Origin: Atopobiaceae bacterium
Lineage (GTDB): Bacteria > Actinomycetota > Coriobacteriia > Coriobacteriales > Atopobiaceae
Assembly (NCBI GenBank): GCA_022655215.1
Contig: JALCUE010000002.1
Span: 124,001-188,000 of the forward strand
DNA: 64,000 nt
Direction of reading: 5' to 3'
Below are positions 16,298 to 24,984 of this stretch, one piece after another (within the stretch, counting starts at the first letter, position 1; the number at the start of each line of letters is the position of its first letter). The notes under the pieces are model-generated. The model saw only the letters and a list, made by a program, of their open reading frames with translations, searched no databases and was not told the origin of the DNA. A program made the translations under genes and the position numbers.

Positions 16298-16804
16298 TTA
16301 GTCTTCCTTCGTCCCTTTTAGCTTTTCCCAACGGAGAGACGAACTCATGGCTTGCATGGCCTTATCCCTGAGAGCGTCGGGAAGCTTCCCACACATCTCC
16401 GTCACCCGTCGTTGTTCCGAGACATCAAGCGGAGGGAGATCGGCGACCTCGTGCTTGGGAGGGATCTCCTTCTTGACCGTCCTCTTCCTTCGGCTCAGCT
16501 TGAACTGGACATCGACGACCGGAAGACCCTCATGACAGAGTCTCTCGACATAGAGCTGCCTGTCACAGGTGAAATCCTGGATGAGTGAGGAGGAATCGAT
16601 ATAGACGATGAGGGTTGGGAGTCCCGTGTGGGACCCACCCTCCTTGAGAAAGACACCACATGTGTGTCGCCGCTCGAGATCCCCATTCGCACGTGACCAC
16701 GCAAGACGAGCCTTCTGCTGTATGCCGAGCTCAGGGGTGGTAACGGAAGAGAGACCCGTCTGGAGGAGAGAGGAAAGGGAAACCCCGTCACGTTCATCGC
16801 CCAT
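16298..16804 (-). CDS. dciA: DciA-like (DUF721) helicase-operator protein
   Basis: 168 residues. A compact KH-like region ('GIQQKARLAWSRANGDLERRHTCGVFLKEGG', 'LIVYIDSSSLIQDFTCDRQLYVERL') and a position immediately after recF fit the DUF721/DciA family, the ancestral loader or operator of DnaB helicase. No DnaC/DnaI loader is visible in the window. The C-terminal half is charged and helical. Its start overlaps recF by 11 bp, indicating translational coupling. Confidence 0.75.
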   Translation of the reverse strand: MGDERDGVSLSSLLQTGLSSVTTPELGIQQKARLAWSRANGDLERRHTCGVFLKEGGSHTGLPTLIVYIDSSSLIQDFTCDRQLYVERLCHEGLPVVDVQFKLSRRKRTVKKEIPPKHEVADLPPLDVSEQRRVTEMCGKLPDALRDKAMQAMSSSLRWEKLKGTKED

Positions 16805-17888: not shown

Positions 17889-18992
17889 CTACATCCGCAC
17901 AGGCATGAGGAGATAGAGATAGTTGATCTTCGAGTAGGACTTGAAGATGCCGGGTTGCATCGGCCCCTGTAGCTCCAGAGACACTTCCTTCTCCTCAGAG
18001 AGGGCATTGACGCAATCAAAGACGTAATGATAGTTGAGGGAGATCGATATGGACGGTCCTTCCACCTCGACACCGATGGCCTCCTTGGCATCGCCTTGAT
18101 CGGTCGATGTGGCGGAGAGGACCATCTGGGATTGATCGGAATCGATGTCGAAGCGCACGGAGGGATTGGTCTGCGCGATGACGGAAACCCTCTTGAGGGC
18201 ACCAGAGAGCTCTTGGAGGTCGATCTTCGACGAGGTCTCACATGACGATGGGAGGAGTTGCTTGTAGTTGGGGAAATTACCCTCTATCTTGCGTGAGATA
18301 TAAGTGGTGTTCCCGAAGACGAAGACGACCTGACTGTCAGTAGATCCGATGAGAATCGTAGATGAGTCCGAGGGAAGGGTGAGCACGTCGTGGAAGACGC
18401 TACCTGGGATGATCATCTTGAAGGCGTTTTCTGTCGAGGAGGTCTCGACGTTGGTATCACAGACCACGAGTCGATAGGAATCCGTGGCGACGAGACGGAT
18501 CGTGTTCTCCTCGACGTTCATGAGTATTCCCGAGAGTATGGGACGTGAAGTATCCTTCGACACCACCTTGTAGACCCTCTCCACCATCGAGGAGAGGATG
18601 TCGCTCGGCAACTCTATCGAACTCTCGAGTGCGAAGGAGGGGAATTCCGGGAAGTCAGCCGGATCGAGGGCATTGAGGTGGAAGGAGCTCCTCCCAGAGG
18701 TGATGGAGACGACCTTGTCCTCGCTCTCGAAGCTCACCGCCGCATCGGGAAGGGTCTTCACTATGTTTGAGAGGACCTTACCTGATATTACGGTCGATCC
18801 CTCTTCCTCGACATTGGCGGCGATCCTATGACGAATCGAGATGGTGAGGTTGGTCGATTGGAATTCGATGGTGCCATTCTCCGCATGGATATAGATTCCG
18901 GAGAGGATGGGGAGCGTAGAGTTCGACGCCATTCCCTTCATCACTATCGACAGGGCCTTCGAAAGAGCTGACTGGCTTACCGAGAATCTCAT
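17889..18992 (-). CDS. dnaN: DNA polymerase III beta sliding clamp
   Basis: 367 residues, standard clamp length. 'MRFSVSQSALSKALSIVMKG' and 'LPILSGIYIHAENGTIEFQSTNLTISI' open the first clamp domain; the ending 'YLYLLMPVRM' is the classic C-terminal 'LMPMR(L/M)' motif. Separated from dnaA by a 226-bp AT-rich gap that carries the oriC-like elements. Codon use is rich in AGG/AGA Arg, unlike genes beyond gyrB. Confidence 0.97.
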   Translation of the reverse strand: MRFSVSQSALSKALSIVMKGMASNSTLPILSGIYIHAENGTIEFQSTNLTISIRHRIAANVEEEGSTVISGKVLSNIVKTLPDAAVSFESEDKVVSITSGRSSFHLNALDPADFPEFPSFALESSIELPSDILSSMVERVYKVVSKDTSRPILSGILMNVEENTIRLVATDSYRLVVCDTNVETSSTENAFKMIIPGSVFHDVLTLPSDSSTILIGSTDSQVVFVFGNTTYISRKIEGNFPNYKQLLPSSCETSSKIDLQELSGALKRVSVIAQTNPSVRFDIDSDQSQMVLSATSTDQGDAKEAIGVEVEGPSISISLNYHYVFDCVNALSEEKEVSLELQGPMQPGIFKSYSKINYLYLLMPVRM

Positions 18993-19218
18993 TTCTAATA
19001 CCCTCTTCTTAATAATAAAGGCCTAGTAATACTAATAGGAGCTGTAGAAAAGACGGAAAGTGAAATACTCGCAGCTACTACCCTATCCTCATCGATCCGA
19101 TCCTTGTTGAAAAGAAAAACTCGAGTGAGAAACATTGTCTGTCGAAAACCATCCTCTACAATTCTCCCCCATCTTTCGACAGATGTCTCTAGGTTCTCTT
19201 CTGAGATATGAACAAACA
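18993..19218. other. Candidate oriC: dnaA-dnaN intergenic region
   Basis: 226 bp, clearly AT-richer than its surroundings. It holds a trinucleotide run TAG-TAA-TAC-TAA-TAG at 19024-19038, like the DnaA-trio described in Bacillus. Four nucleotides away is TGTAGAAAA (19043-19051), then TGTTGAAAA (19105-19113), TGTCGAAAA (19140-19148) and an inverted TGTCGAAAG (19173-19181). These differ from the TGTGGATAA DnaA box at two or more positions but recur near dnaA. The trio orientation (3'-GAT units running away from the boxes) matches the Bacillus arrangement. Also contains the dnaN promoter by position. No gene is apparent. Confidence 0.6.
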
Positions 19219-20688
19219 TCATTCCATCTCGGATAACTCTTCCTTGAGTCGCTCGATTCGATCGAAGAAGAGATGGTTCTCATGCATCTCCTGGTCGACC
19301 CAACTCACGGAGTGTTTGATGGTGGCATGACTTCTCCCACCAAACTTCTTTCCTATCTCGGCGAGTGTGTCGTCAGTCAGGGTTCTCGTGAGCCAGATTG
19401 CTATGTGTCTTGGCTCCATTATCTCTTTGTTTCGCTTGCTTCCTATCAGGTCGTTATGTGAGATGGAGAAGAACTCCTCCACCTTCTGTTGTATCTCTTC
19501 GACCGTCACCATTCGCTGTTTCAAGGACCACCGCTGCTTTGCGAGACCCTTCACCATCGACTGGTCGAAGTCGGAGCCATTCCTCTCACACTTCGTGGCC
19601 ATATAGAGACAGGATTGGCAGAATGCCTTGATCAGGCGGATGTTGGTCCCGGATACCTCTGCCATGTATTTGAGACAATCCTCCGAGATCTCGCCCTCAT
19701 AGTCCTTGACGCCCTCCTCCTTCATCCTCTTGTAGAAGGAGGAGATGAGAGTGTATTTGAGCTCATAGCTTGGCACCTGGATGCTCACGCTGAAACCCCC
19801 GTCGAGTCTGCTCGTGACCCTTTCCTCCATTCCAAGTTCAAGAGGTGGGACGTCCGCGGCGAGGACGATCTGCTTACCGTTGTTGATGAGGTGGTTGAAG
19901 GTGTCGAAGAAGAAGGTGATGGTCCTGGCGGCATTCCTCATGTTCTGGATGTCATCGATTATGAGGATGTCTATGTTTTGGTAGTTCTGCTCGAGGGACT
20001 CCTTCATGTCCTTGTTCGGGTTGCTCATGGCGTTCGTGAAGTCGGAGATGAAGTCGTTTGCCGTCTTATAGACGCAAACCCTCGAAGGATCGTTCGTGAT
20101 GACATAGTTTTGTATGGCCTTCAGAAGGTGAGTCTTCCCTAGGCCACTCTTTCCGTAGATGAAGAGAGGATTGAAGTTCTTATCACCATCAGCCACACCT
20201 TTGGCAGCTTGGAGAGCTATCTGATTTTCCTCACCTTCGACGAACGTCTCGAAGGTGAGCTTCGAGTCATTCTCGGTGACATTCGAGACGAGGGGATTTC
20301 TCTTGTTTTCCTTGGGTTTGTTTGACTTCTTGGCGGGGGAGGTCTTCCTCAACGAAGGCATCTGATTGTCCGACCTCATGTTATTCAGATCGTCTTCCGA
20401 GATGGTCGAGACCATCTCCCTCTTTGGGGAGGAAGTGTCCCTCTTGACCTCTATTCTCACCTTCATTGGTGTAAAAGCTGCCTGTGTGGCGAGATCGTTT
20501 AGAAGGGGAATCTGCTTCTCGAGGGTTGCCTTGACGAATTTGGTCTTCGTGATGACACACAAGGTGTCCCCATCAATACCATCGGCACTGCAACTACGCA
20601 GCATGGCCGCGGTCTGTGGTTGCATGTCAGATTCCTCCACGAGGGAGAGGATGTCATCCCAGAGGAAAGTGGAGTCGGAGTCCGTCAT
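19219..20688 (-). CDS. dnaA: Chromosomal replication initiator DnaA
   Basis: 489 residues. Domain I about 1-85, then a Lys/Ser-rich linker (domain II). AAA+ domain III has Walker A 'GKSGLGKTHLLKA', Walker B 'ILIIDDIQNM' and sensor regions. Domain IV ends with the DnaA signature 'GKKFGGRSHATIKHSV' (normally GR.H.T..H). Domain IV also has 'EPRHIAIWLTRTLTDDTLAEIGKKFGG', where the common R-Q is I-W. The box-contacting loop may therefore be slightly altered, which fits the non-standard boxes nearby. Confidence 0.96.
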   Translation of the reverse strand: MTDSDSTFLWDDILSLVEESDMQPQTAAMLRSCSADGIDGDTLCVITKTKFVKATLEKQIPLLNDLATQAAFTPMKVRIEVKRDTSSPKREMVSTISEDDLNNMRSDNQMPSLRKTSPAKKSNKPKENKRNPLVSNVTENDSKLTFETFVEGEENQIALQAAKGVADGDKNFNPLFIYGKSGLGKTHLLKAIQNYVITNDPSRVCVYKTANDFISDFTNAMSNPNKDMKESLEQNYQNIDILIIDDIQNMRNAARTITFFFDTFNHLINNGKQIVLAADVPPLELGMEERVTSRLDGGFSVSIQVPSYELKYTLISSFYKRMKEEGVKDYEGEISEDCLKYMAEVSGTNIRLIKAFCQSCLYMATKCERNGSDFDQSMVKGLAKQRWSLKQRMVTVEEIQQKVEEFFSISHNDLIGSKRNKEIMEPRHIAIWLTRTLTDDTLAEIGKKFGGRSHATIKHSVSWVDQEMHENHLFFDRIERLKEELSEME

Positions 20689-20719
20689 CTAGTCCTTCTA
20701 TGTCTCGTCAGTCACAAAA

Positions 20720-20737
20720 TGTTGAAAACTCATTATA
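20720..20737 (-). promoter_or_regulatory. dnaA promoter -10 with overlapping TGTTGAAAA box
   Basis: On the minus strand TATAAT (20737-20732) lies 44 bp upstream of the dnaA ATG; transcription would start near 20725. The box TGTTGAAAA (20720-20728, plus strand) covers that start point, the expected place for DnaA autorepression. No strong -35 is visible. Confidence 0.55.
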
Positions 20738-20768
20738 TGAGAACGAGAGAACCTGACTGGTGGAATCC

Positions 20769-21716
20769 TCAATTGATTGGTGTGAGGTAGGACCTTCCGA
20801 GTTGCGTGGGATATTTCTTCTGACCGACCTTCTTGAGGATTCCCAGCTCCTCGAGATGTGACGTCACCTTTGACCAAGTAGGTTGGGACAGACCATATTC
20901 CCTCACGAGCTCGGATGGGCCGACGTCCTCATGGGTGGAGAGATAGGTCATCACCATGGACTCTCGCCTATTGAGAACTGGTCTGGCCGTCTGTGGTTGA
21001 TATTGGGGGCTCGCGATTTGAGGTGGCATCTGCTGATAGACAGGATAAGCCCCCGGTACGACCCATGGTTGGGGTTGATATTGCTGCTGATATGAGGTGG
21101 GGGGTTGAGAAGGGATTTGGGGAGATGCCATAGGAATCTCCTCTCCCTCCTCTGTTTCCTTTGCTTCCATCGAGATGGTGACTATCGTCCCCTTCGAGAT
21201 GTTGTCCTCGATGGTGAGAGTCCCTCCCTTGTCGTTCATATAGTTCTGTGCGTATGGGAGACCTGATCCGACACCTCTGATGTAGTGCTTCATCTCGTCT
21301 GACGCTGAGGTGGTACCGAACTCGAGCGCCCGCTCCTTCTCCTGGATCCCAGGGCCCTGGTCGGAGAATCGGATGGTGTCTCCCCCGTCGAGGATGCTCA
21401 CGGTCGGTTCGATGAAATAGGCATGAATATAGTTCTCGACGACCTCACGTATGACCATGAAGGGAATATGGCCACCCTGCTCATGTGAGAGGCGAGTGAC
21501 AGTGGAGGTTATTTCCTCGAGGTATGAGCGAACATCCTCGGGATCCACGACCACGACGCGTGGGGCGGCCGATTGGTCGTCATAGACGGCGATTCGAGCG
21601 GGATATCTGACGGTGAGTGTCTCTTCCTCACCCTTCACCTCGACATCGGGTGAGTCGGCATCGTGTCCGTCGACGAACGGATAGAAGGTCTTGGCCACCA
21701 TGCTCCCTTTCGACAT
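20769..21716 (-). CDS. GHKL ATPase fused to a winged-helix domain, next to dnaA
   Basis: 315 residues, cytoplasmic. Residues about 80-185 form a GHKL (anti-sigma-kinase/histidine-kinase type) ATP site: N-box 'REVVENYIHAYF' (90-101), G1 'DQGPGI' (119-124), G2 'RGVGSGLPYA' (147-156) and 'KGTIV' (175-179). There is no phosphoacceptor His domain and no membrane segment. A Gln/Pro-rich linker (about 195-245) leads to a winged helix (about 248-312, 'ESMVMTYLSTHEDVGPSELVREYGLSQPTWSKVTSHLEELGIL'). It lies between dnaA and rpmH, downstream of its own promoter. An ATP-responsive regulator of origin or dnaA activity is conceivable, but function is not known to me. The ATG at 21716 has GGGAG upstream. 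Confidence 0.8.
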   Translation of the reverse strand: MSKGSMVAKTFYPFVDGHDADSPDVEVKGEEETLTVRYPARIAVYDDQSAAPRVVVVDPEDVRSYLEEITSTVTRLSHEQGGHIPFMVIREVVENYIHAYFIEPTVSILDGGDTIRFSDQGPGIQEKERALEFGTTSASDEMKHYIRGVGSGLPYAQNYMNDKGGTLTIEDNISKGTIVTISMEAKETEEGEEIPMASPQIPSQPPTSYQQQYQPQPWVVPGAYPVYQQMPPQIASPQYQPQTARPVLNRRESMVMTYLSTHEDVGPSELVREYGLSQPTWSKVTSHLEELGILKKVGQKKYPTQLGRSYLTPIN

Positions 21717-21812
21717 CTTTTGCTCCCATGTCGAAAACTTTCCAAAGAATTCCGAACAAAGAGAAAGTTTTAGACAGAGGTTGATTGCTTGTTGATAAAC
21801 CTGTTAGCAGTG

Positions 21813-21840
21813 ATTATAGGGCAGTGGATGTCATATGACA
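21813..21840 (-). promoter_or_regulatory. Promoter and palindromic operator of the GHKL-winged-helix gene
   Basis: On the minus strand TATAAT (21818-21813) is preceded after 16 bp by TGTCAT (21840-21835). The -35 is half of a perfect 12-bp palindrome, TGTCATATGACA (21829-21840), a plausible binding site for a dimeric winged-helix regulator, perhaps the gene's own product. Confidence 0.5.
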
Positions 21841-21949
21841 CATCCGGATGATGTAACTAATTTCGAAAGGTTGCCAGGGGATTCGAATGATTCCGAACAT
21901 TCATGGATATGTGGGAATGGTCGCGTCGGCGGATCGCTCATCTTAGAAA

Positions 21950-21979
21950 TTGACAACGTACCAGCAAGACCCCTACAAT
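21950..21979 (+). promoter_or_regulatory. rpmH promoter
   Basis: TTGACA (21950-21955), an 18-bp spacer and TACAAT (21974-21979), with transcription predicted near 21986, 46 nt before the rpmH start. Near-consensus housekeeping promoter. Confidence 0.8.
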
Positions 21980-22031
21980 CTTAGGGCTTTTGCTGCACTT
22001 GCAGTATTCGTTGTTCCCAGGAGGATTTCTT

Positions 22032-22166
22032 ATGAAGCGTACGTATCAGCCGAACAAGAGGAAGCGTGCTAAGAGTCACGGCTTCCGTGCCCGTATGGCC
22101 ACCAAGGGTGGTCGTGACGTTCTTTCCCGTCGTCGTAACAAGGGTCGCAAGCAGCTCACAGTCTAG
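22032..22166 (+). CDS. rpmH: 50S ribosomal protein L34
   Basis: 44 residues. It reads [12 protein letters not shown], then '[20 protein letters not shown]' and a basic end '[10 protein letters not shown]', the complete L34 sequence. AGGAGG lies 6 nt before the ATG. First gene of rpmH-rnpA-yidD-yidC-jag on the plus strand. Confidence 0.97.
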
Positions 22167-22174
22167 GAAGCATC

Positions 22175-22495
22175 ATGAAGACCATCAAATCCAAGAGGGA
22201 ATTTGAGACGGTCTTCTCCACCGGGAGAAAGTCCGCAGGTAGGTTCTCTCGGGTGATAGTCTGCGGAAACACCGAAGGCGGCCCGGGAAAGGTCGCCTTC
22301 GTCGCTGCAAAGAGGCTTGGAAACGCCGTCTATAGGAATCGCTGCAAGAGGGTTCTGAGGGTAGCCGCTCGCGAGAGCGGTCTGCCTATTGACGGCAAGG
22401 ACGTCATCATCCTCGCGAACGGTCGCACCCATGGTGCGTCGCCCGCGGAGGTGGCTGATGACCTCGTCTGTGTCATCGAGAAGGCGACGAGGTAG
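22175..22495 (+). CDS. rnpA: Ribonuclease P protein component
   Basis: 106 residues. '[22 protein letters not shown]' and the RNR-type signature '[23 protein letters not shown]' identify the RNase P protein, which with the RNA subunit matures tRNA 5' ends. Starts 8 nt after rpmH, overlapping the usual coupled arrangement. Confidence 0.95.
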
Positions 22496-22508
22496 TAAAG
22501 GACGGGCT

Positions 22509-22727
22509 GTGGAGATGGGATCAAGGGCACTTCTTGCCATGATCCGGTTCTACCAGAGGAGGATCTCTCCCCTGCTCCCAGCATGTTGCATCTACTACCC
22601 GACGTGTTCCCAATATGCCGTCGAGGCCATTCAGAAGCATGGTGCGTTACGAGGTGGGTGGCTTGCTTTCCGGAGGGTTCTCCGCTGCAACCCATTCCAT
22701 AAGGGCGGATATGACCCTGTCCCATAA
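22509..22727 (+). CDS. yidD: Membrane protein insertion efficiency factor YidD
   Basis: About 72 residues. '[67 protein letters not shown]' region shows every YidD mark: paired Cys, Y-P-T-C-S-Y and R-C-N-P-x-x-x-G-G-x-D-P-V-P. The GTG at 22509 has AAAGGA 6 nt upstream; the ATG at 22515 is the alternative. Acts with YidC at the membrane. Confidence 0.93.
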
Positions 22728-22750
22728 GGGCAGGCAGGTGCGGAGGAACT

Positions 22751-23509
22751 ATGTGGGATTGGTTTATTAATTTCCTGACGGACATCCTTGCCGGATTGGC
22801 AGGTTTCGTCGGTGACTGGGGCCTTGCAATCATCCTGCTCACCTTCATCATCCGTCTCCTGCTCACTCCCCTTACCATGAAGTCGACCAAGTCTTCGGCG
22901 AAGATGCAGGCGCTTCAGCCGAGGATGATGGAGATCCAAGAGCGTTATGCAGACGATCCGACGCGCCAGAGTGAGGAACTCCGCAAGTTCTACTCGGAGA
23001 ACAAGTTCAATCCCCTCGGCGGCTGCCTGCCGATGTTCCTGCAGATGCCCGTCTTCTTCGCCCTCTTCACGGTCCTCCAGAAGGTTCCCGCAGAGGCTCA
23101 CTTCTATGGCATCCTCGACTCCCTGAGCCAGTCCGTCTCCGGCGCCATCTCCGCCAACGGATGGCAGGGTGCCATCGTCTACATCCTCCTCGACGTCCTC
23201 TTCGGCGTCCTGACCCTCATCCCCATGCTGCTCAACACGCAGAACAGTGCCCCGGAGCAGGCAAGCCAGACCAAGATCATGGGCGTGGTCATGGCCGCGA
23301 TGATGATGTGGTTCGGTTGGAGCGTGCCCGTCGGTGTCGTCCTGTACTACGACACCTCGGCCGCTTGGGGTGTCATCCAGCAGGTCTTCATCACACAGCG
23401 CGTCATGGAGAGCATCAAGGCCCAGGAGGCCGAGAGGCTCAAGAATCAGCCCGTTCAGGTTGATGTCGTCAGGAAAGAGCGCAAGCAGCGCCCCCACAAG
23501 AAGGATTAG
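22751..23509 (+). CDS. yidC: Membrane protein insertase YidC/Oxa1
   Basis: 252 residues, the short Gram-positive YidC type without the large periplasmic domain. 'DWGLAIILLTFIIRLLLTPLTMKSTKSSAKMQALQPRMMEIQERYADDP' contains TM1 and the conserved Arg (the groove Arg in 'IIRLLLTPL'), followed by 'NPLGGCLPMFLQMPVFFALFTVL' and two further TM regions. No lipobox; the N-terminus 'MWDWFINFLTDILAGLAGFV' is an extra hydrophobic segment. The C-terminal tail is basic. Confidence 0.95.
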   Translation: MWDWFINFLTDILAGLAGFVGDWGLAIILLTFIIRLLLTPLTMKSTKSSAKMQALQPRMMEIQERYADDPTRQSEELRKFYSENKFNPLGGCLPMFLQMPVFFALFTVLQKVPAEAHFYGILDSLSQSVSGAISANGWQGAIVYILLDVLFGVLTLIPMLLNTQNSAPEQASQTKIMGVVMAAMMMWFGWSVPVGVVLYYDTSAAWGVIQQVFITQRVMESIKAQEAERLKNQPVQVDVVRKERKQRPHKKD

Positions 23510-23559
23510 TTAGATAGCTGATTATCATCACGGGTTCCCGTGCCGCGTTGGAGGTTGCC

Positions 23560-24159
23560 ATGGAAAATGATGAGCTAGATACCACGGAAGCAGAGGTCAC
23601 CACCGACGTGACTGTCGAAGACGCGCCTATGGACGAGGCCGACTTCCAGTCCATCAGGGAGCATTTCGAGGCTGGTACAGACCTCTCCGATGAGGAGGTT
23701 GACACTATCGCTGACAGTGCTGTCGCGATCCTTCGTTCCCTCCTCGGCTGCTTTGGCGAGTCCCAGTCCGGTGTTGATGAATATGAGGGAGACGAAGGCG
23801 AGCTCATCCTAGACGTCAATGGTGGAGATCTCGCCATCCTCATCGGCAGACATGGACGTACCCTGGATGCCCTCCAGCAGATAGTCTCTTCGCTTCTCAG
23901 CAACAAAATCGGCTTCCACTATCCCGTCGTGGTCGACATCGAGGGATACAAGAGCAGAAGGAAGCAGAAGGTCCAGAGCATCGCCCTTTCCGCTGCATCG
24001 CGCTCCAAGAAGCAAGGCGAGGCAGTCAAGCTTGCTCCGATGAACGCCTATGAGCGCCGCCTTGTTCATATCGCGCTCCGTGATGACGCCTCTGTGAGCA
24101 CTCATTCCGAAGGCGAGGACCCCGATCGCTATGTGGTCATCACCCCGGTACATGAGTGA
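23560..24159 (+). CDS. jag: KH-R3H RNA-binding protein Jag/KhpB-like
   Basis: 199 residues from the ATG at 23560 (GGAGG upstream). The N-terminal 75 residues are acidic, not the usual Jag-N sequence. KH domain: 'DVNGGDLAILIGRHGRTLDALQQIVSSLLSN' (G-R-H-G in place of G-K-x-G). The R3H-like end 'LAPMNAYERRLVHIALRDDASVSTHSEGEDPDRYVVITP' follows. Family members bind RNA and influence cell division and wall synthesis, usually encoded right after yidC, as here. Followed by a strong terminator. Confidence 0.92.
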   Translation: MENDELDTTEAEVTTDVTVEDAPMDEADFQSIREHFEAGTDLSDEEVDTIADSAVAILRSLLGCFGESQSGVDEYEGDEGELILDVNGGDLAILIGRHGRTLDALQQIVSSLLSNKIGFHYPVVVDIEGYKSRRKQKVQSIALSAASRSKKQGEAVKLAPMNAYERRLVHIALRDDASVSTHSEGEDPDRYVVITPVHE

Positions 24160-24184
24160 GGCTCAGTGAAATAGCGTGACCTTC

Positions 24185-24214
24185 AAGGGGAGCACCTAGG
24201 TGCTCCCCTTTTGT
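24185..24214 (+). terminator. Rho-independent terminator after jag
   Basis: A 26-bp perfect palindrome (24185-24210; arms AAGGGGAGCACCT / AGGTGCTCCCCTT) followed by TTTGTGTG. It ends the rpmH-jag operon 26 bp past the stop. Confidence 0.88.
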
Positions 24215-24258
24215 GTGACAATTCTTCTTGTTACGTGGAATTCTGTCAAAGGGATTAG

Positions 24259-24984
24259 ATGATGAACATAGATGCTGCAGACGGTTTACTCCAAGAGAGA
24301 TTGACCGAGTACGGCATAAGGAGTTCTGAGGAACAGAGAAGGATGCTCTTGCAGCACCTCGACCTTGTTCTCAAGAAGAACGAGGTCTTGAACCTCACGA
24401 GGATCACTGAGCCAAACAAGGCAATAGATCTTCATATCCTCGATTCGCTTCTCATCTATCCAAGATTCTCAGAAACGAGCGGGACGTTCATTGACATTGG
24501 AACCGGCGCCGGATATCCAGGTATACCTCTCGCGATCATGAGTGGTCGCAACGGCGTCCTCATGGATTCCGTTTCCAAGAAGATCACGGCGTGTGAGGAG
24601 TTCATTGATGCCCTAGGTCTTCACAAGAGGCTTGAATGTACTAATGAAAGGGCCGAGGCATATGCACTCACACACAAGAAGGCATTCGGTGCGGTGGTAG
24701 CCAGAGCAGTCGCACCTCTCGGCATCTTGATTGAATACGCCTCTCCCCTACTCTCTGATCATGGAGCACTGATCGTCACCAAGGGAAGGCTGTCTGACGA
24801 GGAATGCTCACAAGGAAACAAGACGGCTGACATCTGTGGCATGGAGATTGTTTCACGTGAAACAATTGAGTTGCCATCAGATGGGGGACACAGAGAGATA
24901 CTTGAGTATAGGAAGACCAAAGTGCCAAAGGTTGATCTCCCCAGACCAATTGGGGAGGCTAAGAAACACCCCTTGGCCCATTAG
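24259..24984 (+). CDS. rsmG: 16S rRNA (guanine527-N7)-methyltransferase
   Basis: 241 residues. SAM-binding motif 'FIDIGTGAGYPGIPLAIM', preceded by 'NEVLNLTRITEPNKAIDLHILDSLL', the GidB/RsmG signature. Methylates G527 of 16S rRNA; loss gives low-level streptomycin resistance. The C-terminal coding sequence contains a perfect parS site (24849-24864), so the last 40 residues partly serve a DNA role ('VSRETIE'). Starts a new plus-strand group with parA and parB. Confidence 0.94.
   Translation: MMNIDAADGLLQERLTEYGIRSSEEQRRMLLQHLDLVLKKNEVLNLTRITEPNKAIDLHILDSLLIYPRFSETSGTFIDIGTGAGYPGIPLAIMSGRNGVLMDSVSKKITACEEFIDALGLHKRLECTNERAEAYALTHKKAFGAVVARAVAPLGILIEYASPLLSDHGALIVTKGRLSDEECSQGNKTADICGMEIVSRETIELPSDGGHREILEYRKTKVPKVDLPRPIGEAKKHPLAH
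24849..24864. promoter_or_regulatory. parS site, perfect, inside rsmG
   Basis: TGTTTCACGTGAAACA, identical to the canonical 16-bp parS palindrome. It lies within the rsmG reading frame about 210 bp before parA. ParB loads here to form the origin-proximal partition complex. Confidence 0.95.

Follow-up and report, generated by a model that had tools for sequence, protein, structure and literature searches.

The window, the whole 64,000-nucleotide stretch of Atopobiaceae DNA analyzed here, carries a minus-strand gene between dnaA and rpmH, as originally described, whose product joins a GHKL ATPase domain to a winged helix through a linker. By Pfam and homology, the neighboring genes are gyrB, recF, dnaN, and dnaA on the minus strand and rpmH, rnpA, yidC, and a jag/khpB-like gene on the plus strand. 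The features used below are as follows; residue numbers, such as E86 and N90, are those of the 310-amino-acid form of the protein.

17889-18992, minus strand: dnaN
19043-19181: DnaA-box cluster in the dnaA-dnaN gap, with boxes at 19043, 19105, 19140, and 19173
19219-20688, minus strand: dnaA, 80 bp downstream of the GHKL gene and on the same strand
20720-20728, minus strand: DnaA box TTTTCAACA, between the GHKL gene and dnaA
20769-21701, minus strand: GHKL-linker-winged-helix gene, 310 amino acids from the likelier start, ATG 21701
20772-20984, minus strand: C-terminal winged helix with a MarR-like fold, residues 240-310
20985-21155, minus strand: Q/P-rich disordered linker, residues 183-239
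21156-21620, minus strand: GHKL ATPase domain, residues 28-182
21261-21275, minus strand: G2 box, G143-V-G-S-G147
21348-21362, minus strand: G1 box, D114-Q-G-P-G118
21423-21446, minus strand: N box, E86-V-V-E-N90-x-I-H93
21707-21798: DnaA-box cluster in the GHKL leader, with boxes at 21707-21715 (plus), 21729-21737 (minus), 21768-21776 (plus), and 21790-21798 (minus)
21729-21776: 48-bp dyad TGTCGAAAACTTTC-N20-GAAAGTTTTAGACA, a candidate regulatory site
21813-21841, minus strand: predicted promoter-like site toward the GHKL gene, GTGTCA-17-TATAAT, matching the consensus at 10 of 12 positions
22032-22163, plus strand: rpmH, the divergent neighbor

The open reading frame first called here (20769-21716, minus strand, 315 amino acids) begins at 21716, upstream of the likelier start. 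Because relatives begin with M-x-x-(D)FYPF, translation probably starts at ATG 21701 or at the adjoining GTG, and the first five codons of the longer frame (21702-21716) would therefore be leader sequence; the leader bears a DnaA-box dyad (21708-21716/21728-21736). Elsewhere in the window, an open reading frame between recF and gyrB (16298-16804) had no Pfam match at 1e-5; it occupies what we take to be the expected place of DciA (DUF721).

Domain structure and ATP site

Membership of the GHKL ATPase superfamily follows from the Pfam HATPase_c model, which scored 34.8 bits against a gathering score of 26.4 (residues 87-184 of the 315-residue frame) and matched all 42 members of our alignment of relatives, A1. 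The domain, which includes a conserved leading strand (ARIAVYDD..APR), is preceded in the AlphaFold2 model by ∼27 disordered residues. Model confidence was high over most of residues 30-180 and 243-300 (pLDDT, about 95 to 98) and low across the linker (about 49 to 68), the sequence of which is variable in A1; a pTM of 0.59 leaves the mutual placement of the two domains undefined. In the window's protein the winged helix gave sub-threshold matches to the MarR, MarR_2, and IclR models at residues about 248-297 of the 315-residue frame, with MarR at 18.7 bits against a gathering score of 24.6. In relatives, the winged-helix match reached E values of 1e-8 to 1e-9. The modeled domain (pLDDT, about 97) adopts the MarR winged-helix fold, superposing on MarR-family structures with Z scores of about 11 and up to 11.5 (rmsd of 1.5 to 2.4 over about 70 residues), and is found in all lineages carrying the gene.

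Across 111 proteins from more than 20 families, selected for mutual identity below 85%, twelve residues never vary: E86, N90, and H93 of the N box; D114, G116, P117, and G118 of the G1 box; G143, G145, and G147 of the G2 box; and G160 and G171. In all 111, E86 stands four residues ahead of N90, at the position of the catalytic Glu in the GHL ATPases MutL, GyrB, Hsp90, and MORC. The catalytic pair of MORC2, Glu35/Asn39, has the same spacing, and in GHKL ATPases generally, ATP binding and hydrolysis act as a dimerization switch (PMC5811534). The N-box region also gave matches to MutL; no MutL or gyrase chain was among the 50 structural matches listed by VIA-align, which does not count against a relationship. 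The GHL ATPases differ, however, in having their own transducer domain, which supplies a catalytic Lys; the modeled protein has none, and its GHKL domain runs straight into the disordered linker. A full hydrolysis cycle of the MutL/GyrB type is doubtful for this reason, and ATP binding may matter more than hydrolysis.

In the VIA-align search, the first domain matched the catalytic domains of CpxA, SpoIIAB, and PDK equally well (Z scores of about 11 for SpoIIAB and CpxA). The catalytic domains of histidine kinases (CpxA, HK853, and KinB) share the fold and the N, G1, and G2 boxes and gave the best single-sequence matches, as would be expected if the protein were the remnant of a decayed sensor kinase. 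We rejected this reading as very improbable: the ATP site shows no variation among the 111 proteins, which come from more than 20 families, the architecture and position are constant, and the parts that distinguish a histidine kinase are absent, with no HisKA/DHp domain or phosphoacceptor His in Pfam searches, in A1 members, or in the structure model, and no sensor or membrane segment in the predicted structure. Intact N, G1, and G2 boxes, no phosphoacceptor His or membrane segment, and a C-terminal winged helix reached through a Q/P-rich linker were all part of the original prediction and all hold, and the structure model and the alignment showed an intact ATP site rather than a kinase remnant with a destroyed one.

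The anti-sigma kinases SpoIIAB and RsbW are likewise soluble GHKL proteins with a short ATP lid and an E-x3-N N box. By analogy, the GHKL domain might bind, and perhaps phosphorylate, a sigma factor, a STAS protein, or another partner, with the winged helix serving only as a DNA tether. The whole SpoIIAB domain superposes on ours (128 of 140 residues; Z score, 11.0), and 30 of the 111 members match the SpoIIAB model weakly (best E value, 3.5e-7). Against such a partner switch, the window's protein scored 16.8 bits with TIGR01925, the SpoIIAB model, where the cut-off is 135; SpoIIAB and RsbW have no winged helix; the N-box His lies at N+3, whereas that of SpoIIAB lies at N+4; and the conserved neighborhood contains no STAS or sigma gene. 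We consider a partner switch of this kind unlikely.

The top structural match over both domains, and the only one to cover both among the VIA-align matches listed, was DIP2311 (PDB 3LMM), in which a GHKL domain is likewise followed by a winged helix (Z score of 15.0 over 209 residues, 14% identity). We take 3LMM to be one of the GHKL-wHTH proteins of the COG2865 type, and the window's protein has the same domain order; neither the N-terminal AlbA_2 domain of that type nor its HATPase_c_4 form of the GHKL domain was among the Pfam matches listed for this protein or its relatives. DIP2311 differs in carrying one or more extra domains in front and in its interdomain arrangement (rmsd of 7.7 over both domains). 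It was a structural genomics target of unknown function (PMC8780604). No family model naming our protein was found, nor any description of the gene or its function in open-access papers, in line with the earlier statement that no function had been described for this architecture at this position. The domain types are known and their combination has one solved, distant parallel; the position and its conservation appear to be undescribed.

Gene order, distribution, and loss

Among loci with enough flanking sequence to be assessed, inside and outside the Coriobacteriia, dnaA lies directly downstream of the GHKL gene on the same strand in 109 of 109, and rpmH lies divergently on the other flank in 112 of 114. 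Conservation of this neighborhood, a check set with the original prediction, thus holds in and beyond the class, and a lack of synteny with dnaA, which would have counted against that prediction, was seen in no assessable relative. The gap to dnaA is below 200 bp in 70 of the 72 loci for which a dnaA start could be extrapolated, and in many it is below 50 bp; no minus-strand terminator was predicted between the two genes in the window. In a quickly computed maximum-likelihood tree, each of the families f1, f2, f3, f40, and f42 formed a single group and the Coriobacteriia stayed together, and protein distances track those of DnaN (r = 0.73), so inheritance is vertical. Specific coevolution with DnaA, beyond shared ancestry, was not detected in the 39 loci of this weak test (partial correlation of −0.07 with DnaN fixed).

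The gene is present in a single copy in the window's genome, where the second match is weak (2.1e-4, 26% identity). In the Coriobacteriia, 361 of 398 genomes gave a match at 1e-3; about 343 of these matches were strong (E < 1e-20), and the other 18 were weak and kinase-like. When 396 genomes of the phylum Actinomycetota were searched with a profile, strong matches came from at least 21 families that do not belong to the class; one of these, f40, is probably Rubrobacteraceae, an identity that we assume. No viral relative was confirmed in viral_contigs, and PADLOC, searched for membership of a defense system, gave merely weak winged-helix matches.

Thirteen Coriobacteriia genomes of fair to high completeness had no match or a weak one, and a further search of them with the profile found no gene either. 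In 11 the origin is probably missing from the assembly, since dnaA was not matched either. Only G162 and G229, members of a single genus, lack the gene yet retain rpmH, dnaA, and dnaN; this is a real loss, and the gene is therefore not universally essential. In both, the rpmH-dnaA interval is long and apparently noncoding and retains DnaA boxes (loci L149 and L150), providing a useful natural experiment. In other lineages (G406, G426, and G398), rpmH and dnaA are present with no GHKL gene between them. G400, from a lineage that also lacks the gene, has a different winged-helix open reading frame upstream of dnaA on the opposite strand (L151:4506-5183), with a weak match (1.6e-4).

Synteny alone is no proof of a functional link. 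The rpmH-rnpA-yidC/dnaA-dnaN arrangement is itself highly conserved, so the protein could be an ordinary transcription regulator of other genes that sits beside dnaA merely because gene order at the origin is frozen. Dispensability in one genus and a winged helix tied to no motif fit such an explanation, but it accounts poorly for a gene that is never found elsewhere in 109 assessable loci and for operon-like spacing to dnaA maintained over 20 or more families, and we regard it as rather improbable.

DnaA boxes and recognition helices

The intervals 21717-22031 and 18993-19218 had been named as places to look for DNA binding by the GHKL protein; the repeated motif that they contain is best explained as DnaA boxes rather than as an operator of this protein. 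TTTTCNACA occurs 8 times in the 64-kb window, against 0.45 expected, and five of its 11 copies in the 2.0-Mb genome lie within 19043-21737. Of 65 loci from other lineages, 41 have TTTTCCACA and 35 have TTATCCACA between rpmH and the GHKL gene in place of this motif, and f40 loci have a further 14 to 18 copies of TTATCCACA in the dnaA-dnaN gap. DnaA with the recognition helix GRDHTT goes together with these canonical boxes; in the window's family the helix reads GRSHAT. Given canonical boxes elsewhere and a linked change in the DnaA helix, TTTTCNACA is best read as a lineage-specific DnaA box, and we rejected a winged-helix operator as its simplest reading. The boxes of the window's family read TTTTC(A/G/T)ACA, not TTATCCACA, an apparent change of DnaA-box specificity. 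The GHKL gene thus lies inside a two-part origin region, with DnaA boxes on either side. GC skew varied too little over the window to locate the origin, and Rfam gave no match in 18500-24500.

With DnaA boxes masked, the search for a separate conserved operator returned only rpmH promoter elements across lineages and, in the window's family, an N20 dyad. Of 30 upstream regions with their boxes masked, 18 contain TTTC-N20-GAAA, where 0.3 would be expected; the longer form ACTTTC-N20-GAAAGT has a single location in the genome, at window positions 21737-21768. The leader module is near-fixed in this family: box, CTTTC-N20-GAAAG, box, 13 to 15 bp, box. Across genera (upstream regions of L004-L034; window 21707-21776), convergent boxes separated by 13 to 15 bp lie just ahead of the GHKL start, and in the same upstream regions a divergent box pair flanks the fixed N20 core. 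DnaA, RNA polymerase, or the winged helix may read the inner half-sites.

In most lineages outside the Coriobacteriales the recognition helix of the winged helix is STAYRDL or a near variant, nearly constant over many families inside and outside the class, which suggests a conserved DNA target. It reads PTWSREL in f1 and f3, which include the window's family, and differs again in f2 and f42. The change in f1 coincides with the DnaA-box change; since f1 and f3 belong to one clade, it counts as a single event and is no evidence by itself. The f42 loci (L107-L109, L125-L127, and L137) have a GREL-like helix variant and few or no canonical DnaA boxes upstream, yet their DnaA reads GRDHTT or GRDHST where readable. 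The motifs enriched in the vicinity of the gene were DnaA boxes and rpmH promoter elements, and none provided a DNA site for the winged helix.

A proposed role at the origin

An intact ATP pocket and a DNA-binding tail, kept together ahead of dnaA, make the protein a strong candidate for a regulator of replication initiation under ATP control. The reading we favor, which we hold to have about an even chance of being right, is that the protein is soluble, binds DNA under the control of ATP, and regulates the promoter of the GHKL-dnaA(-dnaN) operon, oriC, or both. The conserved gene order, short gap to dnaA, and vertical tree argue for it, as do the invariance of the ATP site, including E86, and the near-constant recognition helix; the two-domain model is confident, and its structural neighbors include MarR regulators and ATP-switch proteins. 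The case is weakened by the failure to assign a winged-helix site, the lack of a DnaA-specific coevolution signal, the loss in one genus, and the absence of a transducer domain. The ATP-dependent switch of the original prediction, acting on oriC or dnaA expression, thus stands in part: the invariant ATP site and synteny support a predicted nucleotide- and DNA-binding protein tied to dnaA or oriC, but the flanking repeats belong to DnaA, and neither coevolution nor universal retention backs the link.

On the ATP-gated model, the gene and dnaA, arranged in tandem behind a leader with DnaA boxes, would be made together from one promoter. The GHKL domain, its site intact, would bind ATP; nucleotide state would alter GHKL dimerization, as in other GHKL ATPases, and so set the pairing of the winged helices. 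Once paired, the winged helices could occupy DNA close to the DnaA boxes, adjusting the expression of dnaA or the firing of the origin to the ATP state of the cell.

A bolder version, possible but tentative, makes the protein a dedicated, ancient initiation regulator of deep-branching Actinomycetota, an ATP-clamped dimer whose winged helices would bind inside the DnaA-box array ahead of its own gene or next to it, in competition or in cooperation with DnaA, and so couple initiation to cellular ATP; in the window's family its target would perhaps be the ACTTTC-N20-GAAAGT dyad. The protein might instead modulate the activity of DnaA directly, brought to oriC by its winged helix. Soj of Bacillus subtilis, a ParA protein, is an ATPase switch linked to the origin, and DnaA responds to its dimer state (PMC4255298); the analogy is hypothetical and functional only, the folds being unrelated. 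The gene adjoins dnaA and is probably coexpressed with it, but DnaA distances show no excess correlation once DnaN is allowed for, and we think direct modulation very improbable.

Regulators of DnaA and oriC differ among bacterial groups, and to our knowledge little has been learned of them in the deep lineages of actinobacteria, among them gut Coriobacteriia and probably Rubrobacter. The search for one has an obvious starting point in a protein kept between rpmH and dnaA in over 20 families. If the ATP-gated model is correct, a GHKL ATP switch would here form the core of an origin regulator, a role in which we know of no GHKL protein, and the proposal can be tested directly in genera that grow in culture, such as Olsenella.
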